Source of the DNA: Methanolobus psychrophilus R15
Lineage (GTDB): Archaea; Halobacteriota; Methanosarcinia; Methanosarcinales; Methanosarcinaceae
Length of the DNA stretch: 64,000 bases
Reading direction: 5' to 3'
Assembly (NCBI GenBank): GCA_000306725.1
Contig: CP003083.1
Location: forward strand, 2,654,042 to 2,718,041
A program made the position numbers and the translations under genes. Of this stretch, positions 7,322 to 64,000 are shown piece by piece; position 1 is the stretch's first letter, and every line of letters begins with the position of its first letter. Under the pieces are notes generated by a model. It did no database searches. It had not been told where the DNA came from and worked only from the letters and a program-made list of their open reading frames with translations.

Positions 7322-7396
7322 TGGGGCCGGGATCGAGAATCGAACTCGAATCGTAGCCTCCACAGGGCCACAGGATAACCGCTACCCTACCCCGGC
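7322..7396 (-). tRNA. tRNA-His (GTG anticodon)
   Basis: The minus strand folds into a full cloverleaf: acceptor GCCGGGG/TCCCGGC, D-arm with AGCGGTTA, anticodon loop CTGTGGA with GTG at 34-36, T-arm TCGAG-TTCGATT-CTCGA. Discriminator C73 is followed by an encoded CCA (7324-7322). C73 is the histidine identity base. The base at position -1 (7397) is T in the tRNA sense, so the G-1 typical of tRNA-His is not encoded and would have to be added after transcription, presumably by a Thg1-type enzyme. Confidence 0.97.
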
Positions 7397-9972: not shown

Positions 9973-11184
9973 ATGTGTTCGCCTATGTATGATTACAAGT
10001 TGAAGATAGAAAAACTAATGATTGTCCTGACAGACCCTGATGAAGCAAAGAGACGCGGATATAAGCACTATAAAAACATCTACTATCCCACAGAAAAGAA
10101 CAAGGAAGTCATCATATCCTACCAACAAACACTGACAATCAACGCATTCAAGGAAAGCACGATTCATAATAAGTTGTCTATCCTACGCTTTTTTGCAGAG
10201 CATTATCATAAGGATTTTGAACTTATGACTAAGCAGGATGTTAAGCAACTGCTGTTTAAGATCGAAACAGAGAAGACCTCCAGGGACAAAGAGCGCACTG
10301 CCGCAAGTAAGGCCATAAAGAAGCAGTTGGTCAAAGACTTCCTGAAATTCCTGTTTGAGGAAGAGATTGTAAAAGAGAAGTTCTTCGAGTCAATACATGT
10401 CAAGATACCCAACACAACAGTAACAGCCGATGATATATACACGGAAGAAGAAGTCAATGCAATGATTGGCAAGGCAATTAACTCGAGAGATAAAGCCTTC
10501 ATTGCCTTGCTCTATGATGTGGGTGGGCGTATTGGCGAAATATTGCCCATGAAACTTAGAAGCATTGAGCAATTGGATAAGGCCATTAGGATTACAATAT
10601 CAGGCAAGACTGGTACACGCTCAATGCTACTGGAATCCTCGATATTTTATGTGCGGCAATGGCTTAACGCGCATCCTGACAGAAACAACCCTGAGGCATA
10701 TCTGTGGTGTACACTTAATGAATGTGGCACTAAAGAGCATGTGAACTACATTACGATGCTTAAAAATGTGAAGGATATAGCAAAGAAGGCAGGCATTACT
10801 AAGAGGATATATAATCATGCTTTTAGGCATTCCAGTGTCACCCGTGATGCAGAGCATTATAGTGAAGCCCTTAACAAGACCAAACATGGCTGGTCACCCA
10901 GCAGCAATATGCTTTCAAATTACAGTCACCTCAATTCTGCCAATCTTGAAAAGGCGCAACTAGAGAAGATGGGACTAGCGCCTATCAAAATAAACAGAGA
11001 ACTTAACCGATGTCAAAACTGCGATGAGATTAATCCGTATGATTTTAAGTGGTGCGGTAAGTGTGGTTACGGACTAAATGCAGAAGTCAGAAAGGAGAAG
11101 GATTCATTGATAACTGATATTTTGTCCCAGTTGCAAAAGAACCCAGAGATATTTGCAGAGGCATTAACAAGAATGAAAGCGTAA
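9973..11184 (+). CDS. Tyrosine recombinase/integrase with C-terminal zinc ribbon
   Basis: 403 residues. An N-terminal SAM-like core-binding domain (about 40-135) precedes the catalytic domain. The catalytic set is visible: R186 in GGRIGE, H282 and R285 in HAFRH, a H/W position in KHGW, and Y317 in NYSHL. After the nucleophile comes an added zinc ribbon, CQNC and CGKC (about residues 345-362), which is uncommon in bacterial integrases but seen in archaeal ones. It is probably the enzyme that integrates and excises the island. A TATA-like TTTATAT lies at 9921-9927. Start is the ATG at 9973, with GAGGT upstream; an in-frame ATG at 9985 is possible. A T-run follows the stop. Confidence 0.92.
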   Translation: MCSPMYDYKLKIEKLMIVLTDPDEAKRRGYKHYKNIYYPTEKNKEVIISYQQTLTINAFKESTIHNKLSILRFFAEHYHKDFELMTKQDVKQLLFKIETEKTSRDKERTAASKAIKKQLVKDFLKFLFEEEIVKEKFFESIHVKIPNTTVTADDIYTEEEVNAMIGKAINSRDKAFIALLYDVGGRIGEILPMKLRSIEQLDKAIRITISGKTGTRSMLLESSIFYVRQWLNAHPDRNNPEAYLWCTLNECGTKEHVNYITMLKNVKDIAKKAGITKRIYNHAFRHSSVTRDAEHYSEALNKTKHGWSPSSNMLSNYSHLNSANLEKAQLEKMGLAPIKINRELNRCQNCDEINPYDFKWCGKCGYGLNAEVRKEKDSLITDILSQLQKNPEIFAEALTRMKA

Positions 11185-14488: not shown

Positions 14489-15205
14489 ATGCATATTATT
14501 GCAGAAGAAATACGTAAGTGTAAAAAGGCATGTTTTATAAATTTGTACGATGAGGTTGAGTACAACAATAAAAAATGGTCTAAAGATGAAGTAGATTCTA
14601 TTAAACCATTAATTCATGGTCCTGAAAATCCAAAAATACTTCTCATCAGTCAAGCACCTTCATTACAAGCTTGGTTAAACGGGAAAACTAGCAATTCTCC
14701 TGATGGAGGGCTTGTAACAATTGAAAATAACTTTTTGATAGATTCCTTATTGCCAGCTTTTGGTTTGTCTGCAAAAGATCTTGATACTTTTAAAGAACAT
14801 GTTTTTTGGATTCATGCATGTAATTGCTACCCTTGGTATAGGATATCTCAAAGCAAAAAAACAGGTATATTTACAAGACAAGATAGGCTTCCCAGTAATA
14901 AACAAAGTGAAAAATGTTTAGGGCAATGGTTGGATAGACTACTAAAAATTGATAGTATAAATGCAATTATTCTAATGGGAGGAGCTGCCACAAGCTTATT
15001 CCCACAGCTATATGAAAAATCAGAAAACTTTACCGATTTAGTCCGTGAAGTAAAAATTAGAAGTGACATAATTGATGGTATCGATATATTGCCAATTTAT
15101 CATCAGTCAAGAAAAAATCGCGTATTTAACGATCCAATTGACAATTCTAAAAACGAAAAAATAAAATCCGTATTAAAAGACAATTTCATTAAGTGGATTC
15201 AGTAA
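14489..15205 (+). CDS. Uracil-DNA glycosylase superfamily protein
   Basis: 238 residues with the UDG-fold marks: ILLISQAPS (50-58) in the position of the GEAPG-type motif 1, and YHQSRKN (204-210) in the position of the HPS motif 2. Both depart from the canonical sequences, so substrate or even catalysis may differ from housekeeping uracil removal. An AAGGA ribosome-binding site lies 6 bases before the ATG. The next gene, a GIY-YIG protein, starts 25 bases after the stop, so the two look like a two-gene unit: base recognition/excision plus strand cleavage. Role in defence against DNA with unusual bases is inference from the setting. Confidence 0.7.
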   Translation: MHIIAEEIRKCKKACFINLYDEVEYNNKKWSKDEVDSIKPLIHGPENPKILLISQAPSLQAWLNGKTSNSPDGGLVTIENNFLIDSLLPAFGLSAKDLDTFKEHVFWIHACNCYPWYRISQSKKTGIFTRQDRLPSNKQSEKCLGQWLDRLLKIDSINAIILMGGAATSLFPQLYEKSENFTDLVREVKIRSDIIDGIDILPIYHQSRKNRVFNDPIDNSKNEKIKSVLKDNFIKWIQ

Positions 15206-15230
15206 ACGAGGTATAAGAGAGGCAAAAGTG

Positions 15231-16091
15231 ATGACAATAGGAAGAACAATTTCAATTTACCTGCCAGATGCCAATCCACAAGGAATTAAAATATGTGAGT
15301 TCTTTGATTCTATTGTCAAAGCTGTTTCCATTCCTAGAGCTAAATTAGATGAGGCTTCAAGCAGATCAGAACTTGAACAACCAGGTATTTATTTTCTGAT
15401 AGGTGAAAAAGATGAAGTTGGGAAGCCTCAGGTGTATATTGGCGAATCTGAAGTACTTTTAACCAGACTTAACAAGCACAACAAAGAGAAAGATTTCTGG
15501 AATCAGGCCATATGTTTTGTATCAGAAAAGAATAATCTGAACAAAGCACATATTAAGTATCTTGAAAATCACGCATGTGAGCAGGCTAAATTAATCAATA
15601 AATGTGCTCTAGAAAACTGTAATACACCTACCAGATCTTCTTTAACAGATCAAGATAGAGACTTTGTTTTACGTTTCTTTGATGAATTGAAGATTATAAT
15701 GGCTACTCTTGGTTATCCTATTTTCGAGCAGGTAAAACGTAGCAAGAGAGACATGTACTTTTGCAAAAGCAAGGATGCTGATGCAGTAGGTGAATATACA
15801 GAAGAAGGATTCATTGTCAATAAAGGATCAAAGTCAAATGTAAAAGAGACTCCCTCTATTCAACAAAGTATCAAAACCTTTAGAGCTAACCTTGCAGACA
15901 AAGGGATACTTAAAGAAGAAAATGGTGTTTATGTTTTTCAGGAAGACTTTACTTTTTCTTCACCTTCTATGGCTGCTTCAGTTGTACTAGCCAGAACTGC
16001 TAATGGGTGGGCGGAATGGAAAATTCAAGATGGTGGGGATATCAAAACACTTGATGATGTTATAAGGAAGAAGCAAGATGTTAATAGATAA
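15231..16091 (+). CDS. GIY-YIG nuclease-like protein with C-terminal DUF4357 domain
   Basis: 286 residues. The N-terminal part (about 45-140) has GIYFLIGE followed by VYIGES, the two strands that name the GIY-YIG nuclease fold, and LENHACEQA in the region of the catalytic glutamate. The C-terminal 70 residues (NPSMAASVVLARTANGWAEW-type segment) match the DUF4357 domain that often accompanies GIY-YIG or restriction-type proteins. ATG at 15231 is preferred over GTG 15228 because GAGAGG lies 9 bases before it. Likely coupled with the preceding glycosylase-like gene. Confidence 0.75.
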   Translation: MTIGRTISIYLPDANPQGIKICEFFDSIVKAVSIPRAKLDEASSRSELEQPGIYFLIGEKDEVGKPQVYIGESEVLLTRLNKHNKEKDFWNQAICFVSEKNNLNKAHIKYLENHACEQAKLINKCALENCNTPTRSSLTDQDRDFVLRFFDELKIIMATLGYPIFEQVKRSKRDMYFCKSKDADAVGEYTEEGFIVNKGSKSNVKETPSIQQSIKTFRANLADKGILKEENGVYVFQEDFTFSSPSMAASVVLARTANGWAEWKIQDGGDIKTLDDVIRKKQDVNR

Positions 16092-16279: not shown

Positions 16280-16354
16280 CCTGACCATATGAGTAATTAA
16301 TTCAACTTAGAATGTGATGAAATACTCGGTGAATTTGCAAGACAAAAAGAAAAA

Positions 16355-16395
16355 GAGGAATAAGCTCTCACATGAGCTTATCCGCAAGTTTCCTC
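16355..16395 (+). repeat. GAGGAA-armed hairpin upstream of the hairpin array
   Basis: Outer arms GAGGAA (16355-16360) and TTCCTC (16390-16395); inner arms TAAGCTC (16361-16367) and GAGCTTA (16374-16380) around the loop TCACAT. A 9-base bulge, TCCGCAAGT, lies on the 3' side. It shares the GAGGAA/TTCCTC arms with the array 270 bases downstream. No convincing gene covers it. Confidence 0.55.
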
Positions 16396-16660
16396 CTGCT
16401 ATAACCATAATATATTCACTGGAACTCTTATATGTGAATAACAAATCTAAGTGATGCTCATTAACGCAAACAATATTATGAGACTCCAAGCGCATGAGCA
16501 ACTCAAAAGACGTAAAGGGTGGTTTATTCAGCACAATTGGTTATTTAAGTCTTGATAGTGGTGCATTTGTCGAATTAAGGGTTCTTTATCTTGTGTAACC
16601 AAAATTACATGTAGGAAGAGATATATTTTTTAATTGTAATGAGATGCCTTAGGAAATTGT

Positions 16661-16840
16661 GGAAAGTAAGTCTATAGCTTCCTTGCTTTCCGCCCATTGT
16701 CAAAAACGAAAAGTGAGGAAAGGTTGTATGCTTCCCCTTTCCTCGTGAACCCCTAAAAAAAAGATGAGGAAGGTTTCCAATCTTTCCCTTCCTCTCCCTT
16801 AAAACAAAATCGAGGAGAATTGATTGACTTCTTTTTCTCG
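16661..16840 (+). repeat. Array of four similar stem-loops (possible non-coding RNA)
   Basis: Four hairpins in 180 bases. Stem 1: GGAAAGTAAG (16661-16670) with CTTGCTTTCC (16682-16691), 11-base loop. Stem 2: GAGGAAAGG (16715-16723) with CCTTTCCTC (16736-16744), 12-base loop. Stem 3: GAGGAAGG (16766-16773) with CCTTCCTC (16787-16794), 13-base loop. Stem 4: CGAGGAGAA (16811-16819) with TTTTTCTCG (16832-16840), 12-base loop. The 5' arms are purine-rich; loops are unrelated; A-rich spacers separate them. Stems 1 and 4 pair fully only with G-U pairs on a plus-strand transcript, which points to RNA. It lies in the gene-free stretch 16280-17174. Confidence 0.65.
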
Positions 16841-17174
16841 GTCACCTCTCAGTTTCTTGGATTTTAATTGCAACCGATCATACATCTCTTGTAAGCCGAG
16901 ATAATTTAAAACTAATATCAATGTATAGGGTGGCTTAAAATAATTTGTCTAAAGCCCTTATAGAGAGATCAAAAAGGCAAGTTTGATGGAAATTCTTAAT
17001 TTTAGTAAAATTACCAATTATACTAAATATAAGAAGTGTTTTCAGGTGTTCTGATAGGTAAAAGTAGGTCTTATATTTAGTAGAATATCCTTTAAATTTG
17101 GTGCTATTTATTCCTACCAAATATAAGCAAAACTATCATAACCATTATGTCCTCCCTCACTGATATTTTATATC

Positions 17175-20006: not shown

Positions 20007-21560
20007 TCAAGTTAATTCCTTGAGTTTTTGTAAGCTTTCATTAATCTTTGCCTGAGATTCTTCAATTATCTTTATCAATTCAGCCGGTTTTGGTATTTCC
20101 TTTTCAATGGTATTAGGATTGACTGCCTTGATATCATAGTCTTTTTTCTTGATGGTATTAATATCCATATACCAGCTTTTCTCACTGATCTTATCTTCTT
20201 CCTTGTCTGAATGAAGTCTCATTAGAAAATCATCAAACTTATCAAGTGTCAGAGGACTTTTCTTGAGTATTTTGATATCCGACATATCATAATACCAAAT
20301 CTTCTCAGTGCTCTTGCCCTTCGTGAAGAACAAGAGATTTGTCTTAACTCCTGCTCCTGCATTTAAGAATACATTTTGTGAAAGGCTCAGAATACACCAG
20401 AGATTACATTCATCAAGGAGTTTTCTTTTTGTTTGTACAAAGGCGGTCTCATTAGTTCTGAACAATACACCTTCATCAATGACCATTGCACAGGTTCCAT
20501 CATCAGCTAAATGATCAATGATGTGTTGTATGAACAGAATCTGAGTATTGCCTGTCTTGAAGGCAAAGTTAGCCTTTGCATCTTCTCCTTCTTTTCCTCC
20601 AAAAGGTGGATTGGTGAAAATATAATTGAATTTGTATGGTGCGCCTTCAAAAAGATCCATGTATGTAACTCTACCACTGAGAGTATTTTTTAGTCCAATA
20701 TGTGGTTGGTCAATCCCATGTAACACAAGGTTTGCAAGGGCTATAGGGAAGGCTGTAAAGCTGCTATCCAGACCCCAGAAAGCATCATGCTTGAGATGGT
20801 TGTAATCTGAAGCCGTGAGTTTTAAGCCGGATATTTCAGGATTGGTTAAGTAAGTGTAATTTTCAGCCAGAAAACCACCTGTACCACAGCCGGGATCATA
20901 GAAGGTTGCATACTCACCATTGTGCTTGACATCAGGCTTAACAGCTCTTATCATTGCCCTGATAACTTCTCTTGGTGTAAAGAATTGTCCTCCATCATTG
21001 TTCTTTTCACCCATTTTGAGAAGCAGACCTTCATAGATTTGTGATAGAGGGAACTGGTGTGTAGCATCTATATTTTCAGATGTTAGGTGTTCAACTTTGT
21101 CCAGAACATCCAGTAAATTCTTTTCACTACCCAATCTTGTATGATTGAGATTCCTGAATATTTGGGAGATTATTTTCTGTCTCTTAGTAGCGTTTGGATT
21201 CTCTTCACGATCATCGAAAGCTTTCAGGTGAGGAATTAAATCTTCATTGACAAAATCAAGAAACGCATTCATTTGTCCTTCTTGAAGTTCTTTTCTCTTT
21301 TTCCCTTCAGGACTTCCCCAATCTCTCCACCTATAAGGATAGTCTAAAGAAGGTTCAAAGTTGTCACCAACTGCTTCACTTTGAAGCTGTTCCTCCTCCT
21401 CTTTCTCATCCAGAATCCTCAAAAACATCATCCAAGTAAGCTCAGGAATATATTCCATTGCACCTTTGGTGTTATCTCTACGCATTATATCGCAGATGGA
21501 TTTTATATAAGCATTCATACTAGATTGATCGGAAACGGTTCTTCCGTTAGTAGTAACCAT
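20007..21560 (-). CDS. hsdM: Type I restriction-modification system, modification subunit HsdM
   Basis: 517 residues, normal size. The N-terminal helical HsdM_N domain (about 10-150) precedes an N6-adenine methyltransferase domain with SAM motif I DPGCGTGGF and catalytic motif IV NPPF (N317). With HsdS it methylates the recognition sequence and, with HsdR, forms the restriction complex. It starts 3 bases after the hsdS stop and ends a minus-strand hsdR-hsdS-hsdM unit. The C-terminal coiled segment (PAELIKIIEESQAKINESLQKL) is the usual contact with HsdS. Confidence 0.94.
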   Translation of the reverse strand: MVTTNGRTVSDQSSMNAYIKSICDIMRRDNTKGAMEYIPELTWMMFLRILDEKEEEEQLQSEAVGDNFEPSLDYPYRWRDWGSPEGKKRKELQEGQMNAFLDFVNEDLIPHLKAFDDREENPNATKRQKIISQIFRNLNHTRLGSEKNLLDVLDKVEHLTSENIDATHQFPLSQIYEGLLLKMGEKNNDGGQFFTPREVIRAMIRAVKPDVKHNGEYATFYDPGCGTGGFLAENYTYLTNPEISGLKLTASDYNHLKHDAFWGLDSSFTAFPIALANLVLHGIDQPHIGLKNTLSGRVTYMDLFEGAPYKFNYIFTNPPFGGKEGEDAKANFAFKTGNTQILFIQHIIDHLADDGTCAMVIDEGVLFRTNETAFVQTKRKLLDECNLWCILSLSQNVFLNAGAGVKTNLLFFTKGKSTEKIWYYDMSDIKILKKSPLTLDKFDDFLMRLHSDKEEDKISEKSWYMDINTIKKKDYDIKAVNPNTIEKEIPKPAELIKIIEESQAKINESLQKLKELT

Positions 21561-21563
21561 GAT

Positions 21564-22172
21564 TTACACCTTTTCTGTAGTATCATATTTTCCGAATGCT
21601 TCATCTAGGATTGATTTAGGAAGTTGATTGATTGCATTAAGTTGTTTTTCAATTTCAGCTTTCAACAATTCAATTTGACTTATATTTTTATCTATTTTTG
21701 TGACAATTTCTCGTTGAATATCAAGAGGAGGAATGGGTATTATTACATTTGACAACACATCTTTCGATATTGATTTAAAAGTTGAGCCAGTACTTTTGTG
21801 TTCAAGTTCTTCTTTTAAGTGAATCAATAAATAATAAAGAAACTTATTGTCTCCACCTATAAAGTTTATTGAAGCTAAACCTCTGCCTATACAATATTCT
21901 TTATTGGCAATATTAACATCTCCTACGGGGGCCCTTACAGATATAAGAATACTGTCTTTTAGAGCTATTTTTTTAGGATCTGTCGTGTATTTGATATTAG
22001 ATGGGAATAATTTACCAAATTCGGCTTTACCTTGCAAAAAAGGCATTCCTTCGCCATTTTCATTATAGGATGAACCTGGAGGAGACTGACCCATTATAAT
22101 TTCAGCTACATCATTCAATTTCTTAAAATTCCAATTATCTGGCATTCTTTCTTTTTCCATTTTCTGAATCAT
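21564..22172 (-). CDS. hsdS: Type I restriction-modification specificity subunit HsdS, half-size
   Basis: 202 residues: one target-recognition domain (start WNFKKLNDVAEIIMGQSPPG, which is the usual TRD entry) and one conserved coiled helix (PPLDIQREIVTKIDKNISQIELLKAEIE). Standard HsdS proteins have two TRDs and two helices in about 400 residues. Nothing suggests that the second half was lost by frameshift: the protein ends cleanly and hsdM begins 3 bases later. Half-size S subunits can work as dimers that read a symmetric bipartite site. Start at 22172, or at the in-frame ATG 22160. Confidence 0.88.
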   Translation of the reverse strand: MIQKMEKERMPDNWNFKKLNDVAEIIMGQSPPGSSYNENGEGMPFLQGKAEFGKLFPSNIKYTTDPKKIALKDSILISVRAPVGDVNIANKEYCIGRGLASINFIGGDNKFLYYLLIHLKEELEHKSTGSTFKSISKDVLSNVIIPIPPLDIQREIVTKIDKNISQIELLKAEIEKQLNAINQLPKSILDEAFGKYDTTEKV

Positions 22173-22253
22173 CCGGTTTATTCATATGTCAATTACAAAT
22201 TGAATCTAATATATCAAATAGCAATAAAATAGTTTCTAGTTAGTTATAATTAT

Positions 22254-24623
22254 TCAAGCCGCCAATAAACGTGCCTTTATATCAGTCATCAAATTATTGA
22301 CCTTGGTACTAATTCTACCAAGTGCTTTTACACCTCCTAATTTCTTAATTTCAGCTACATTAAAAACATCTCTGCTTTCTAACTCTTCAATACCATTTTC
22401 TCTGAATTGATCAACCAATGCTTTGATCACTTCTGAAGAATCAGAGGGCAAACTCATAAGCCATTCTTTGTTTTTGTAATCAAAGGCTTCAACTCTTTCA
22501 TCTCTTGTCTTGGCAGGAACACCAAACCCTATCTCAGAGAATATGTCGAAAAGGTCACAATCATCAAGTTCAAGCAAATCCCTTAATAAATATGCGCCTT
22601 GATTACCACCTGGTAGGGCTGAAACCAGATGTTTTCTATCCTCAGGATTAATCCACATTTCCCTTAGAAGATCTATATCCTTTGCTTGATCTACAAGAGA
22701 AGCTGCTAACTGTTCCTTATATTCCTCTATAGTTACAGGCTTTTCTTTTCCTGTGGCATCATCACGCATCAAGATAAAAGTTCCTTCATCCTTGATCTCT
22801 ACTTCATAGCCCTGAACTTTTGCTATCTTTCTTTTCTCACTTGTGCTTTTCTTTGAAGGGTTAGAAGGAGTAGATCTTGGACTTGAAATGAAATCTTCAC
22901 CAAATAGTCTTGTAACATTAGTGTAATCATAAATTCTGAACATATACTTGTTAAAGCCTTCATCAATTCTTGTTCCACGGCCTACCATCTGGTAGAATTG
23001 GATAGGTGAATTCACGTAATTGAAGAAAACAATATTTTGAACACAAGGAATGTCAACGCCTGTTGTTAATAAGTCAACAGTTGTTGCAATGAAATGCGAG
23101 TTTTGGCTTCCTCTCATGTTTGCTATAAGCACTTCCTGAGATTCACCAAGAATTCCTGCTGAGATTCCCTTTTGAGTGCATTTGAAAGCAAATTTATCAC
23201 ATTCCGGTAATCCTCTTTCGACATAGAGATTGTTGAATGTGTTGGCCACATCACCAGCATGCTTGTCGTTTACACAGAAAATTATTGTTTTCTGCTTGAG
23301 ACCACCAGTCTCTTCAAACATATTCATCAGATCTTCACACATGGCTTTAACTCTATCAGGAAGGATGAGATCTCTTTCATAGCTTTTCTTGCCATAAGCT
23401 TCTCTTGTATCATGAATTGTTAGTAGATTACCTGTCTTTGCATCCCTGGCACCCATATTAACTATCTCTTGTCCACTAAGTAATCTATCATCAATATCAG
23501 GATGCCTTTTTACAATCTCACAAGCTGCCAGATAACCGTCTTCCCATCCCTTATAGTATGGATATTCATAAACCGGCTCACCAAAGTACTCTATGTTATT
23601 CCGGTTGATTTCCTTATCCATTCCTCTCTCATCGGCACTGCCTCCGCTAATCTGCCTTGGTGTAGCCGTTAAGCCTATCTGAACTGCATCGGGATTGTTC
23701 TTCAGAACAACGCTCCACTTGTTCCAAGCACTCCTGTGACACTCATCAATAATAATGTGGCTAAAGTAGTTCTTCGGAAAATGCTCAAGGAAAAATGATT
23801 CATCTCCATCTTCGTCAATACCAAGAGCCTGATAAGTAGAAACAATAATACGAGCATTCTTCTTTGGGTCTTTATTTTCAACAAAATCAGCATTATCTCC
23901 AAATACAGCAAACATCCGACCAAAGCCTTGTTTTCTCAGTTCATTTCTGTCGCAGACAAACAAAGCCTTCCTGAGTTGTCCGGTTTCAGCAAGCTTGTAA
24001 AGTATCTGAGAGGCTATTCTTGTTTTTCCAGATCCAGTAGCAAGAGATAACAAAACTCTGTTCCATTTCTCCTGTTTTGCAGCTATTTTTTCAAATGTGG
24101 CTCTAATAGCCGCATCCTGATAATAGCGCCTTTCTGATTGACCACCTTTATAGGGCACAAGTAAGGGTTTTGCCATTTCATCTTCAAGGCACAAGCCCTT
24201 TCCCGTTTCATAATGAGATTTTAATATATCAGGCGTAGGAAACTGATTTAGAGGAAACTCATCACTAAAGCGTTTATTAAAAGCATCATAGGATACAAAG
24301 GAATGCCCATTGGTTGAAAAGACATAAGGAACATTGAGATATTTTGCATATTCCTTGGCCTGATCAATACCAAAGCCAGCAAACTCATCTTCCTTTTTAG
24401 CCTCAATAACTGCTACAGGCAACGGATTTTGGCCTTTAGAGGTTGGTAAACATAAAAGGTAATCTGCTTTACCGCTTTTCCTTTTTGTTTTGCCGTTTAT
24501 AATTTCAACAGCACCAGCAGTAGTTTCACGTCTTATTAGATCTTCTTTCCAACCGATTGAATGAAGTTTTGGATCAATAAGTTTTGCTCTGGTATCTGCT
24601 TCGTTATAGCCCATTTTTACCAT
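22254..24623 (-). CDS. hsdR: Type I restriction enzyme, R subunit (EcoEI-type)
   Basis: 789 residues. The N-terminal nuclease domain has KADYLL and AVIEAKKE (PD-(D/E)xK). The SF2 translocase follows with Walker A ATGSGKT, DECHRS (DExH box) and GRGTRIDEG (motif VI), and the C-terminal EcoEI_R_C-like domain includes REMWINPEDRKHL. It translocates DNA and cuts unmodified DNA at a distance from the HsdS site. ATG 24623 or ATG 24614 is the likely start; a TTG three bases earlier is also in frame. Order R-S-M on the minus strand, with 81 bases before hsdS. All motifs are intact. Confidence 0.93.
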   Translation of the reverse strand: MVKMGYNEADTRAKLIDPKLHSIGWKEDLIRRETTAGAVEIINGKTKRKSGKADYLLCLPTSKGQNPLPVAVIEAKKEDEFAGFGIDQAKEYAKYLNVPYVFSTNGHSFVSYDAFNKRFSDEFPLNQFPTPDILKSHYETGKGLCLEDEMAKPLLVPYKGGQSERRYYQDAAIRATFEKIAAKQEKWNRVLLSLATGSGKTRIASQILYKLAETGQLRKALFVCDRNELRKQGFGRMFAVFGDNADFVENKDPKKNARIIVSTYQALGIDEDGDESFFLEHFPKNYFSHIIIDECHRSAWNKWSVVLKNNPDAVQIGLTATPRQISGGSADERGMDKEINRNNIEYFGEPVYEYPYYKGWEDGYLAACEIVKRHPDIDDRLLSGQEIVNMGARDAKTGNLLTIHDTREAYGKKSYERDLILPDRVKAMCEDLMNMFEETGGLKQKTIIFCVNDKHAGDVANTFNNLYVERGLPECDKFAFKCTQKGISAGILGESQEVLIANMRGSQNSHFIATTVDLLTTGVDIPCVQNIVFFNYVNSPIQFYQMVGRGTRIDEGFNKYMFRIYDYTNVTRLFGEDFISSPRSTPSNPSKKSTSEKRKIAKVQGYEVEIKDEGTFILMRDDATGKEKPVTIEEYKEQLAASLVDQAKDIDLLREMWINPEDRKHLVSALPGGNQGAYLLRDLLELDDCDLFDIFSEIGFGVPAKTRDERVEAFDYKNKEWLMSLPSDSSEVIKALVDQFRENGIEELESRDVFNVAEIKKLGGVKALGRISTKVNNLMTDIKARLLAA

Positions 24624-24762
24624 CAAGAAATAATTGAGTAGTAAGAATTGTGCAATAAGTTATAAATGTGTTATGTCTTTTGATTAGGAAAAAAGATGAA
24701 TGTATGTTAAGTTTTAATCTAACAAGAAACCAGTAGGATGATATCCTACGGTTATAATTACA

Positions 24763-27372
24763 TTATTTAAAGACATCAATATTTAACAGCAATTCGTCTA
24801 AATCATTTTTCTTAGACATCACTTTTGATTTTAATGTATTAATTTTTTCATAGCTTCTTGCAACTTCAATTTGTTTATTAAGATCAATGCCACCGTTTTC
24901 ATCAGTTGGTATCCTTACAAAAAAATTCTTTACTTTCCCAACGTGCGCTTCATTCAATCTTGAAAACTTCCCATCATTCTTGAGATGTTCTCTTAAGTAA
25001 TAAAGTACATATTCGAGGCATATATTGTCATTAACTATCTCAATTAGACCACGATTTTCTGTAACATAAAAAGGTGTTTCGTGTAATCTTATGTCTTCAC
25101 ATGGGTCGCCTTTTATATTCCAGCTTATAAGCATATTATTTTCTTGGTTTGTTTCATTCTCTATAAGTAATGGAGGATTTGTTTCATCATACATTAAATG
25201 AATAGGACCATCCGTTTTTGAAGAATATAACGGATATGAACCGAGATTTAATCGAGCATGTCTTACTGTAACATAATTGTCATGTTGCCTTGTAGTAAAA
25301 TAATCCTGATTATCTAATTTCACTTCAATATAATCTTCAAGCGAAAATATATCACCTAACTCTTTGTCACCTTGGTTAATTATTTGATTTAAATCCTCTA
25401 TAATAACATGTGACTGTTCAAGGAATTCTTGGAATGAGATCTTGTCATCATTTGTTTTTTCCCTGCACCAATCAAATAACTCTGACCATCTACCACATTT
25501 ATCGAATTCATCCCTGCTAACTAACTTGCATTTAGAATCAGCATTAGTTCCAGATAAACGTTTTTCCCAAGCAATTTTCATGTTTGGAATGTCGTTTTCA
25601 TCTATAGGGGTTCTGTAAGAATCTAGAGACAAACCTATATTTTCGATATCATAGAGGAACACAGGAGAATATTCTTTCATTTCACTTTTAGTTTTAAATA
25701 TTAGTATGGAGGTTTTCCAGTTATTATTTTGGAAACATCCTACCGGCAAAGATATTATTCCCATAACATCGGCATGTTCTTTAATTACATCTCTAATTTT
25801 ATCCTTATGTCTGTATAATATCCCATCTGTGACAATTACATATGCCCAACCAGGATTCCCATTTTTTATTTGATATAAAATATATTTAATAAACCGGCTT
25901 TCTACTCCTAATCCACATGATTTATAGAAAGAGAATAAATTAGCTTCAATCAAGCTGTCATCAATTTGCTTTACACCATTTACATAATATGGAATGTTTG
26001 TTAATACATAATCAGCACTATGTATAGGGTATAATAGTTCTATTGAATTGTCAGAGTTGCCATTAGAGGCTGTTTCCTCTTCTGAACTAGCTTTATTAAT
26101 GAGTTCCATCTCTCCCAAAGTGCCAGTTCCATTATGAGTTGCATGAAGAAAAGTAGAGTTTATTTTTTCAACTAATTTTTTGTTATCATAGGAAGGATCT
26201 ACAAATTTATCTAATAAATGCAAAATCATATTTGCTTTTGCAGTAATAATCATTTGTTCATCTCTATCTATTCCAAAACAATTGTACGAAAGGGGATTAA
26301 ATTCATATGGATAATTCAATCCTTCTAATACAAAACCACCCACACCACACGCAGGATCTATTACTTTTTTTCCTGCAGATGGTGAAGCCATTTCCCATAT
26401 TGCTTGAATAATTGATCTTGGCGTCAAATGTTTGCCATTTTTTATAGTCCCTTCACTATGGGCAGAGCCTAAAAAGGCTTCAATTACTCTCCTTTTAAAA
26501 TCAGGATCTATTTGCCTGTTAGCCAAATTACCAAGTTCACATAAATCGCTCAATACATTTTTAAAAACAGTTTCCTGCTTGTCGAATGCAAACCCATTAA
26601 TGACCCCTGGTTGGTTTGCTATCGTGGGAAATACATTAACTTTAATATATGAACGTATTACATTTTTATAAGTATCCAAAGAATTAGTTTTTGCAGGGTT
26701 AGCTAGTTCTGTGATTAAATAATCTTGCGGTAAAAGTTTTGCATCAGATATTCCTTTGTATAATAGCAGCTCAATAAATGTTGCTAAACAAGTATGTGCA
26801 TTTTCCCCAGTTGCAACGAAAATTTTTTGCCAAAGTCCATATATAGTTGGCTCTTTGACTATGAGTGGATTATAGTATTCTTTTGGTGGCAATATTTCTA
26901 ATGAATTATTTACTGGTTTTTTTCCTAAAAGGATTTGTTCAGACAATAATAAAAGATGATTTTGCGCAACAGCATTTTGTTTTGAAATGACTTTTTTACC
27001 AAAACAAGAAACTTCTTTCCCTTTGTATGTGGTACCTATCTCTGTTATATTATCATTACCAATTCGAAAAAAAGTTTTTACTTGGTCTCCAACACGAGCA
27101 ATAAAATAATTTGTATTAGGCAATACACTTAAGTAATTATCTTTGATTTGATTTATTGCCTTTTCCATATCACTCGCGTTGTCTTTATCTTCTATACCAA
27201 TCAAAATCTGGTTGTTATGTGCAACAATTTGATCGGGTTTTTTTCGACTGGATAAACAATCAAATCCCTCTCTTCTTAAATGCGTAAAGGAAATATCGTT
27301 ACATTTAAAGAGTCTTAAACCTGATTCATTCAGTTCTAAAAAAGGGATTCCTTGAGATGTACTTTCAGACAT
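24763..27372 (-). CDS. Single-chain Type IIG-like restriction-modification enzyme
   Basis: 869 residues. N-terminal nuclease-like domain: D47 then, after a strand, E61-D-K63 (PD-(D/E)xK spacing). Methyltransferase core: helical region, motif I DPACGVGGF (from D339) and, at the motif IV position, N459-I-P-Y462 instead of the usual NPPY/F. C-terminal part (about 655-869): TRD-like segment with GSYPLYSSKTDGP and a terminal coiled helix, as in HsdS. This is restriction, modification and specificity in one chain, or a Type I M-S fusion with a degenerate nuclease. AGGAGAT lies 7 bases before the ATG, the strongest ribosome-binding site in this island. 139 bases separate it from hsdR downstream. Confidence 0.8.
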   Translation of the reverse strand: MSESTSQGIPFLELNESGLRLFKCNDISFTHLRREGFDCLSSRKKPDQIVAHNNQILIGIEDKDNASDMEKAINQIKDNYLSVLPNTNYFIARVGDQVKTFFRIGNDNITEIGTTYKGKEVSCFGKKVISKQNAVAQNHLLLLSEQILLGKKPVNNSLEILPPKEYYNPLIVKEPTIYGLWQKIFVATGENAHTCLATFIELLLYKGISDAKLLPQDYLITELANPAKTNSLDTYKNVIRSYIKVNVFPTIANQPGVINGFAFDKQETVFKNVLSDLCELGNLANRQIDPDFKRRVIEAFLGSAHSEGTIKNGKHLTPRSIIQAIWEMASPSAGKKVIDPACGVGGFVLEGLNYPYEFNPLSYNCFGIDRDEQMIITAKANMILHLLDKFVDPSYDNKKLVEKINSTFLHATHNGTGTLGEMELINKASSEEETASNGNSDNSIELLYPIHSADYVLTNIPYYVNGVKQIDDSLIEANLFSFYKSCGLGVESRFIKYILYQIKNGNPGWAYVIVTDGILYRHKDKIRDVIKEHADVMGIISLPVGCFQNNNWKTSILIFKTKSEMKEYSPVFLYDIENIGLSLDSYRTPIDENDIPNMKIAWEKRLSGTNADSKCKLVSRDEFDKCGRWSELFDWCREKTNDDKISFQEFLEQSHVIIEDLNQIINQGDKELGDIFSLEDYIEVKLDNQDYFTTRQHDNYVTVRHARLNLGSYPLYSSKTDGPIHLMYDETNPPLLIENETNQENNMLISWNIKGDPCEDIRLHETPFYVTENRGLIEIVNDNICLEYVLYYLREHLKNDGKFSRLNEAHVGKVKNFFVRIPTDENGGIDLNKQIEVARSYEKINTLKSKVMSKKNDLDELLLNIDVFK

Positions 27373-62367: not shown

Positions 62368-64000
62368 TCAAGGGCGTATGAGGTACTGGTTCCCGCTATC
62401 TGCATTGATCCTCAATACTCCTGCTGAAACAAGTTCACTTATCTTTGCTTCGATCTCACCTTCGGAGAACTGCTTTGAGATCAGGCTTTTTATGATCTCT
62501 TTTTTCACCTTTGCACCACGTGGCATGTACATTAGTATATTGCCCTCGAGCTTGCCAGGTTTCGCAGTGTTTTGTGCGGACTGCCTGGATTGCTGCTGCA
62601 CTTGTGGCATCGCAGCAGGCTGAGTTTCCATGAACGGCAAAGACTGTACATTTTCCTGCACATCCAGTATGGGAGGTGCAATGAATGGGGGCATCTTCTC
62701 GGTTTTAAGGGGCTCAGCTATCTCATGCAGCCTGAACAGAGGCTGTCTTAAGTCTCCATGGGGTGCTGTCTCGCTTTTGGTATCAAAGGATGGCATGGCT
62801 GGTACTATCTGTCCCATATCCCCTGGCATTTTGAACTCCTGCATCACTATCTGAGTCCCCTGTTCTTCCATAGCTTGAGGTTTGAATTCCGGCATAACGA
62901 GGGATGGTTCACTTACTGACTTTGTCTGTTGCTCGAAAACTGGCATTATCGGGGCTGGTTCGCTTACCGGGATAACCTGCTGGTTGAAAGCTGGGATTAC
63001 CGGAGCTGGCTCGCCTGCCGGAACGGAATGCTGATTGAAAGTTGGCACTATAGGTGCTGATTCGCTTACCGGAAGAGCATTCTGATTGAAAATGGGCATT
63101 GTTGGTTTTGGCTCACTTACCGGAATAAGATGTTGATTGAAAGCCGGCATTACTGGAACTTGTTCTCTTGTCGGAATAATATGTTGTTCGAAAGCTGGCG
63201 TTACCGGGACTGGCTCACTTATCGGAATAGCTTGCTGTTCAAAAGCCGGCATTACCGGAGCCGGCTTACTTATCGGAATAACTTGCTTTTCAAAAGTCGG
63301 CATAATAGGAGTTGTGTCGCTGGCAGGAGTAACTTGTTGCGTTAGCTCCGGCATCATTGGAATTGATCCGTTTGCATTAATGTCCTTTTGCTTGAATTCT
63401 GATATTATCGGGGGTACTTCAGGCTCTGTGTTTTCAAGTGGTGCCTGCGCAAAAGTATATTCTGGCTGATTTGAATCCGCGAAAACTTCCGGCTGGTCAA
63501 ATACAGGCTCCTCGGGAGGATTTTGTACGATATCATGGATCATCGCTCCATTAAATGCCTTCCCGGGTGTTGTTTCAGAAATCCGGAAGTGTATTTCCTT
63601 TTTCTCAAACTCTGGAATCTCTGCCGGGGCATCCGGTATAACAGTGCACGGCAGGGCAATGCTTTTCTCGCTTATGGGAATTATTATTGGCTCAATATCG
63701 TCACCAATGTTGCTTGCAAGGGGCCTGTCTTTGTATGAGATTAATGAACCCGATGGCAGAATGTCTGAAGATGGTTCAGAATCCGGGCTAAGGGTGATTT
63801 TTCCTGTCAGGTGTTTCTCAAATTCAGTAAGTTTTAAGAATATCTCATCTACGTTTTCCTTAAGAATTGTGAAATCATGCACCCATGGTTTATTGCTGGT
63901 CTCAGGTGTATCTTCAAGCGTTTCAAGCTCTCTTTCCACCAGTTTTCTGATGAACAGGCTTTTGTTCTCTATCCTGTCCAGCTTTTTGAAAAGCTCATCA
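62368..64000 (-). CDS. 17-residue-repeat protein with C-terminal winged helix (cut at right edge)
   Basis: The frame is open from the stop at 62368 through the right edge; a GTG at 63939 is available, but the upstream codons (DELFKKLDRIENKSLFIRKLVEREL) look coding and recall a ribbon-helix-helix, so the start is probably outside. The middle (62880-63360) is nine or ten copies of a 17-residue unit, consensus PVMPAFxQQxIPVSEPA, at a 51-base DNA period. The last 60 residues (about ILMYMPRGAKVKKEIIKSLI to YLIRP) form a winged-helix domain. So: N-terminal possible DNA-binding, Pro-rich spacer, C-terminal wHTH. Function not known. Confidence 0.75.
   Translation of the reverse strand, partial: DELFKKLDRIENKSLFIRKLVERELETLEDTPETSNKPWVHDFTILKENVDEIFLKLTEFEKHLTGKITLSPDSEPSSDILPSGSLISYKDRPLASNIGDDIEPIIIPISEKSIALPCTVIPDAPAEIPEFEKKEIHFRISETTPGKAFNGAMIHDIVQNPPEEPVFDQPEVFADSNQPEYTFAQAPLENTEPEVPPIISEFKQKDINANGSIPMMPELTQQVTPASDTTPIMPTFEKQVIPISKPAPVMPAFEQQAIPISEPVPVTPAFEQHIIPTREQVPVMPAFNQHLIPVSEPKPTMPIFNQNALPVSESAPIVPTFNQHSVPAGEPAPVIPAFNQQVIPVSEPAPIMPVFEQQTKSVSEPSLVMPEFKPQAMEEQGTQIVMQEFKMPGDMGQIVPAMPSFDTKSETAPHGDLRQPLFRLHEIAEPLKTEKMPPFIAPPILDVQENVQSLPFMETQPAAMPQVQQQSRQSAQNTAKPGKLEGNILMYMPRGAKVKKEIIKSLISKQFSEGEIEAKISELVSAGVLRINADSGNQYLIRP

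Follow-up and report, generated by a model that had tools for sequence, protein, structure and literature searches.

The window, i.e., the whole 64,000-nt stretch of DNA analyzed here, is part of a 3,072,769-base Methanolobus genome and contains an island with a phage-type integrase gene, a nearby tRNA-His (Table 1), a DUF3987 primase-like protein and a gene for a wHTH regulator that gave a weak TrmB/wHTH profile match. Since the island carries integrase, primase-like and wHTH genes, we conclude that it is a decayed provirus. The related loci L031 and L032 carry other replication-type proteins. In relatives, a small coat-like gene (coat-like gene 2) comes after a second small membrane protein gene (coat gene 1), and it is intact in L031 and L032, where it forms ORFs of 76-93 aa. 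In the window it is reduced to a remnant, and the stretch at 16537-16637 matches two congeneric genomes in which the matched part is the 3' end of a membrane protein gene. A relative of coat gene 1 in genome G014 (homology E 1e-9) matched a PHROG virion structural family (E 8e-4). Of the genes that mark the Methanosarcinaceae coat-like/wHTH provirus group (integrase, coat-like membrane genes and wHTH gene in conserved order), the window has the integrase, the coat-gene remnant and the wHTH gene; coat gene 1 was not found in the window's own genome.

Between the coat-gene remnant and the wHTH gene lies an array of four hairpins, followed by a conserved noncoding stretch. The original prediction had placed the hairpins in a gene-free part of the island; indeed, no ORF of at least 60 aa occurs within 16535-16934, although the setting proved to be more specific, the array following a decayed coat-like gene and preceding the wHTH gene of the provirus.

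Table 1. Coordinates of the provirus features surrounding and composing the hairpin array.
Feature	Window position	Strand	Details
tRNA-His near integrase	7322-7396		
Phage-type integrase gene, same island	9973..11184	+	Pfam PF00589, E 9e-15
Coat-like gene 2 remnant	16539..16598	+	Last 20 codons, GYLSLDSGAFVELRVLYLV, then stop; DNA identity to gene 3' end in L011/L013, 75%/69%
Promoter-like motif	16600..16636	+	AAAATTACATGTAGG..ATTTTTTAATTG; degenerate copy of wHTH-gene motif; PWM rank 5 of 28,918
Predicted RNA start	16637 (genome 2,670,678)	+	From promoter-like motif
Hairpin 1	16659..16693	+	GTGGAAAGTAAG/CTTGCTTTCCGC; 12 bp (2 G-U), loop 11
Hairpin 2	16713..16746	+	GTGAGGAAAGG/CCTTTCCTCGT; 11 bp (2 outer G-U), loop 12
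Hairpin 3	16766..16794	+	GAGGAAGG/CCTTCCTC; 8 bp (0 G-U), loop 13
Hairpin 4	16809..16842	+	ATCGAGGAGAA/TTTTTCTCGGT; 11 bp (3 G-U), loop 12
T-rich stretch, possible RNA 3' end	16848..16872	+	From sequence; in relatives CATTTTCCTATTTTCC, two T4 runs
Conserved noncoding stretch before wHTH gene	16873..17174	+	Alignment with L031/L032; TTTAGTA/TACTAAA-type repeats
wHTH regulator gene of provirus, 126 aa	17175..17555	+	58%/53% identical to same-place gene in G024/G007

Within the conserved noncoding stretch, TTTAGTA/TACTAAA-type repeats lie at 16994-17011, 17017-17034 and 17069-17086 (18-bp, 94% complementary inverted pair). Sites of this type also precede the wHTH gene in L031, L032, L034 and L066, and those at 16994-17086 are likely operators of the wHTH regulator. 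The same stretch includes a TATA-like (minus strand) block at 16918-16934 (AATATCAATRTAT..) that is kept in L031 and L032 and recurs in isolation in G013 (L047). The closest relative of the wHTH gene is apparently split by an insertion element into L066 (G122:C110) and L033 (G122:C121): one G122 contig stops in the start of the wHTH gene and the other opens with the remainder, and both bear the same CACTCGATGTT end.

Uracil-DNA-glycosylase-like and GIY-YIG/DUF4357 genes (14489-16091), possibly cargo or defense genes of the provirus, lie between the primase-like gene and the coat remnant. A gene-end relic (..LADKLM stop) with a hairpin-plus-T terminator is found on the minus strand at 16341-16398, and this end recurs at 84-98% identity elsewhere in the same genome and in other Methanolobus genomes (L006-L010, L012, L014-L016). 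Beside the provirus, on the minus strand at 20007-27372, is a cluster that, judged from ORF sequence only, is restriction-modification-like (methyltransferases, a specificity subunit and a helicase-type subunit). Finally, a tandem array at 62935-63287 holds 6.9 copies of a 51-bp unit, a period that is a multiple of three and suggests a repetitive protein.

Structure of the hairpin array

Refolding recovered the four stem-loops where they had been predicted, with cores starting at 16661, 16715, 16766 and 16811 and thus spaced by the 54, 51 and 45 nt originally described. Loops of 11-13 bases had been reported, and we measured 11, 12, 13 and 12; the stems, reported as 8-10 bp, reach 12, 11, 8 and 11 bp in full once G-U pairs are counted. 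Hairpin 2 is preceded by an A-rich linker, AAAAACGAAAAG, which is also present in G007. When the plus strand was folded, all four hairpins were recovered (z -2.4 in one run), and a second run gave z -3.1 with equally good folds in 2 of 300 shuffles, whereas minus-strand folding produced clean stems for hairpins 2 and 3 only. Four such hairpins within 190 nt arose in one of 200 composition-preserving 64-kb shuffles under one setting and in none of 200 under a tighter loop range; a third setting (stem of at least 9 bp) counts three of the four window hairpins and makes the array less unusual. Seven G-U pairs occur on the plus strand in the window stems and one in the relatives' stems, with no A-C pairs, although these counts are somewhat biased toward the plus strand by a stem extension that allowed plus-strand G-U. 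Since a minus-strand reading would turn each G-U pair into A-C, this asymmetry favors a plus-strand reading.

The array matched no Rfam family even at E<5, in keeping with the earlier statement that it resembles no known RNA or CRISPR. Its arms are merely similar to one another, the best direct repeat being 17 nt at 76%, and there was no match to a CRISPR-DR family in Rfam at the array; a CRISPR array or mimic was therefore rejected, as the arms are not near-identical direct repeats. We also rejected a Type III toxin-antitoxin RNA, with no TRF tandem array at the locus and no toxin family among the neighbors, and a plus-strand intrinsic terminator, as no plus-strand site was called and the hairpins are followed by A-rich linkers rather than a T run. 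A loop motif, RCTTC, near the 3' end was striking by eye, but it did not rise above shuffled loops (four window loops, 23 vs. 23.5 expected; all seven loops, 110 of 3000) and was dropped.

Conservation of pairing in related proviruses

Proviruses of Methanolobus vulcani PL 12/M and G007 contain a ~575-nt intergenic region (about 570-585 nt) homologous to that of the array and flanked by a small virion-protein-like membrane gene on one side and the wHTH gene on the other. The entire interval between the coat-like and wHTH genes aligns among the window and these relatives and is of similar length. Each relative has three hairpins, ATTGGATTGTGG/CCACAATCCAAT, AGGTGAAGG/CCTTCATCT and AAGGGTAAGGG/CCCTTACCCTT, whose arm sequences differ from those of the window while pairing is intact, and their arrays fold at z -4.5 and -4.7 with equally good folds in none of 300 shuffles. 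Sequence alignment sets window hairpin 3 against the relatives' hairpin 2, with all eight pairs kept and one changed on both sides, and window hairpin 4 against their hairpin 3, with 11 of 11 pairs kept and six changed on both sides. Thus, the compensatory changes that were proposed as a test of the prediction do occur in homologous islands and amount to seven pairs in total.

The covariance search suggested at the same time also singled out the array. A model built from the two relatives alone, with the window left out, ranked it first in the window, at 28.8 bits and E 4e-4 (next match, E 3), and returned it as the sole match in its own genome (E 0.02), E-values from this model being rough. 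The register of the hairpins is ambiguous, because sequence alignment matches window hairpins 3 and 4 to the relatives' 2 and 3 and the covariance model matches 2 and 3 to 2 and 3; both registers would be accounted for if the window line had gained an extra hairpin. For a combined model of the single hairpins, loop lengths put the stems out of register.

The relatives found with an intact array number two and are close to each other in the hairpin block. Beyond the array, covariance matches in G114 and G125 were at chance level (112 genomes), and G125 lacks the array fold (z -0.1) and has lost the promoter motif. In G122, the coat-like/wHTH interval retains a single hairpin plus T7. Plasmids, phages, IMG/VR and viral contigs searched with the array and with the coat-like and wHTH proteins yielded no relatives, and one GTDB scan revealed no intact-array relative beyond M. 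vulcani. A 17-mer pattern scan hit nine contigs, all of which lack the coat-like and wHTH proteins and were rejected. Searching the window's own genome and the genus for the purine-arm hairpin pattern gave one other match in the same genome, which is not a paired hairpin array.

Selection on the hairpin block

Comparison of M. vulcani with G007 showed that third codon positions are identical at 66% in coat gene 1, 55% in coat gene 2 and 77% in the wHTH gene, while identity reaches 100% across the 91 nt of the block of hairpins 2 and 3 and 91% in the following ~170 nt. In hairpin 1, both 12-nt arms are unchanged whereas the long loop has diverged. Local gene conversion or recent recombination could account for part of the 100% block; however, it does not mimic the contrast between arms and loop in hairpin 1. 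The array is therefore under purifying selection in the relatives, and the view that it is RNA kept by selection gains support from the compensatory changes, the independent covariance match and a block conserved above the neighboring genes.

Promoter-like motif and predicted RNA ends

In five genomes, an ATGTCC(T/C) motif occurs 27-29 nt upstream of the wHTH start codon. Using a PWM derived from the wHTH promoter sites in leave-genome-out fashion, we found that in both relatives the sequence leading from the coat stop codon to hairpin 1 ranked second of 37,920 positions, next after the wHTH site itself. Most of the motif signal resides in the heptamer, as masking it dropped these ranks to 46 and 10. 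The window's copy reads ATGTAGG instead of ATGTCCT and scores about 0, and because the motif is degenerate, the window copy of the array may be silent. ATGTCCT is also present 28 nt before a coiled-coil gene that is divergent from the coat genes (L031 6911 and L032 8128; minus strand, reverse-complement coordinates), and in L031 this site shares TTACATGTCCT with the array site. Archaeal terminators are U-tracts, and two U4 runs are efficient (PMC8716108). From the promoter-like motif and the T-rich stretch beyond hairpin 4, we predict where the RNA would begin and end if the array is transcribed.

Discussion

The explanation that we prefer, with about even chances of being correct, is that the array is a gene for a structured noncoding RNA, belongs to an archaeal virus integrated in Methanolobus and forms a complete small transcription unit. 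A complete small unit, with a promoter-like motif, selected hairpins and a T-rich end, is also the simplest reading, and we hold it with moderate confidence; as related viruses conserve this stretch better than their own protein genes, the RNA is probably virus-encoded. Transcription would proceed along the plus strand, driven by a promoter of the type used by the viral wHTH gene; the RNA would start near 16637 and end in the T-rich stretch near 16850-16870, for a length of about 220 nt, with four hairpins joined by A-rich single-stranded linkers. As the provirus decayed and its coat-like gene was reduced to the last 20 codons, the RNA fold would have persisted. Such a multivalent RNA might offer its repeated stem-loops to a protein, as a decoy or scaffold, within a wHTH-controlled program.

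A serious rival, albeit one that we consider unlikely, is that the hairpins are a structured 3' UTR, or a 3'-end processing or stability element, of the coat-gene mRNA. The hairpins of the relatives lie directly behind a coat-like gene, the G122 interval combines its one hairpin with a T run, and distant relatives of the coat gene carry one hairpin and a T run after the gene (G014, TAATGGGGAGCAATCCCCGTTA; G111, CAGCGGAGATT..AGTCTCCGCTG). These terminator-like hairpins of the G014 and G111 proviruses, from Methanosarcinaceae, resemble the array in their position behind a homologous coat-like gene, but each stands alone, is GC-rich and is followed by a T tail on the plus strand, whereas the Methanolobus arrays have three to four hairpins, no such tail and a promoter-like motif of their own. 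Moreover, hairpin 1 is set apart from the coat stop codon by a conserved T-rich stretch and the wHTH-type promoter motif, and the array has outlasted the coat gene in the window.

Also serious, but clearly less probable, is the possibility that the array comprises tandem minus-strand terminators for leftward transcription from the wHTH operator region, shielding the coat genes from antisense. Owing to the A-rich linkers of the plus strand, T runs follow hairpins 2-4 on the minus strand (TTTTCGTTTTT, T8, TTTTGTTTT), as they do in the relatives (TTTTCGTTTTT, TTTATTTTTT); two U4 runs suffice for efficient termination in archaea (PMC8716108), and one terminator-like minus-strand site was called in the array. 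However, archaeal terminators do not strictly need a hairpin (PMC8716108), so selection on pairing would go unexplained. In addition, the plus-strand wobbles become A-C mismatches that break hairpins 1 and 4, and no minus-strand gene or clear promoter was identified to the right.

It is more improbable still that the hairpins act as DNA, whether extruded or single-stranded, in a replication origin, packaging site or recombination site. The relatives show strong pairing on both strands, and hairpin origins are known in archaeal pleolipoviruses, e.g., the betapleolipovirus SNJ2 (Rep-Arvir), which has one conserved hairpin plus an inverted repeat behind rep that act as DNA (PMC13107129). Like the SNJ2 origin, the array is a noncoding element of an integrated archaeal virus that forms hairpin structure and lies downstream of a gene. 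It differs in having three to four hairpins that contain G-U pairs and are RNA-like, and in lying between coat-like and wHTH genes rather than beside a rep gene; no Rep-Arvir gene was recognized, and an SNJ2-type rolling-circle origin was rejected, as the array is not directly behind a rep endonuclease gene. A role as DNA is thus made less likely by the neighboring genes and by several G-U-only pairs, which point to RNA, and the replication-type proteins differ among the three proviruses. Lastly, although the provirus in the window shows visible degeneration and purine/pyrimidine-rich DNA readily folds, the view that purine-rich hairpins clustered by chance in a decaying provirus is disfavored and highly improbable in view of the shuffles, the homologous hairpins with compensatory changes, the blind covariance match and selection in the relatives.

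How might a structured proviral RNA act? Bacterial sRNAs of the CsrB/RsmZ type are short, contain several similar stem-loops with single-stranded linkers, and serve as multivalent, protein-sequestering decoys. The array shares the similar stem-loops and single-stranded linkers, but a shared loop motif is not statistically supported and there is no homology; we know of no Csr protein in this archaeon. Given its architecture, a decoy or scaffold is the most likely mode of action, with the protein partner and the effect put forward tentatively. More speculatively, the RNA could be co-regulated with the wHTH gene, bind a host or viral protein and help decide between lysogeny and virus production, with the number of hairpins varying among viruses (one, three or four). 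The original prediction listed a guide, decoy or antitoxin-like RNA and plasmid copy control as roles; none drew specific evidence from our analysis, no CRISPR-repeat family matched in Rfam, and no toxin or rep gene was recognized next to the array.

To our knowledge, few noncoding RNA genes have been described in archaeal viruses, and the array would be an unnamed RNA family with unusually clear comparative support. dRNA-seq of Methanolobus psychrophilus R15 identified 195 noncoding TSSs in intergenic regions (PMC5378194). Those intergenic sRNAs come from the same genus and probably the same strain as the array, and the predicted start site can be checked in existing transcriptome data of the host genus. 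The locus also indicates that, as a provirus decays, a noncoding element can outlive the coat gene and show stronger conservation than the surrounding proteins.
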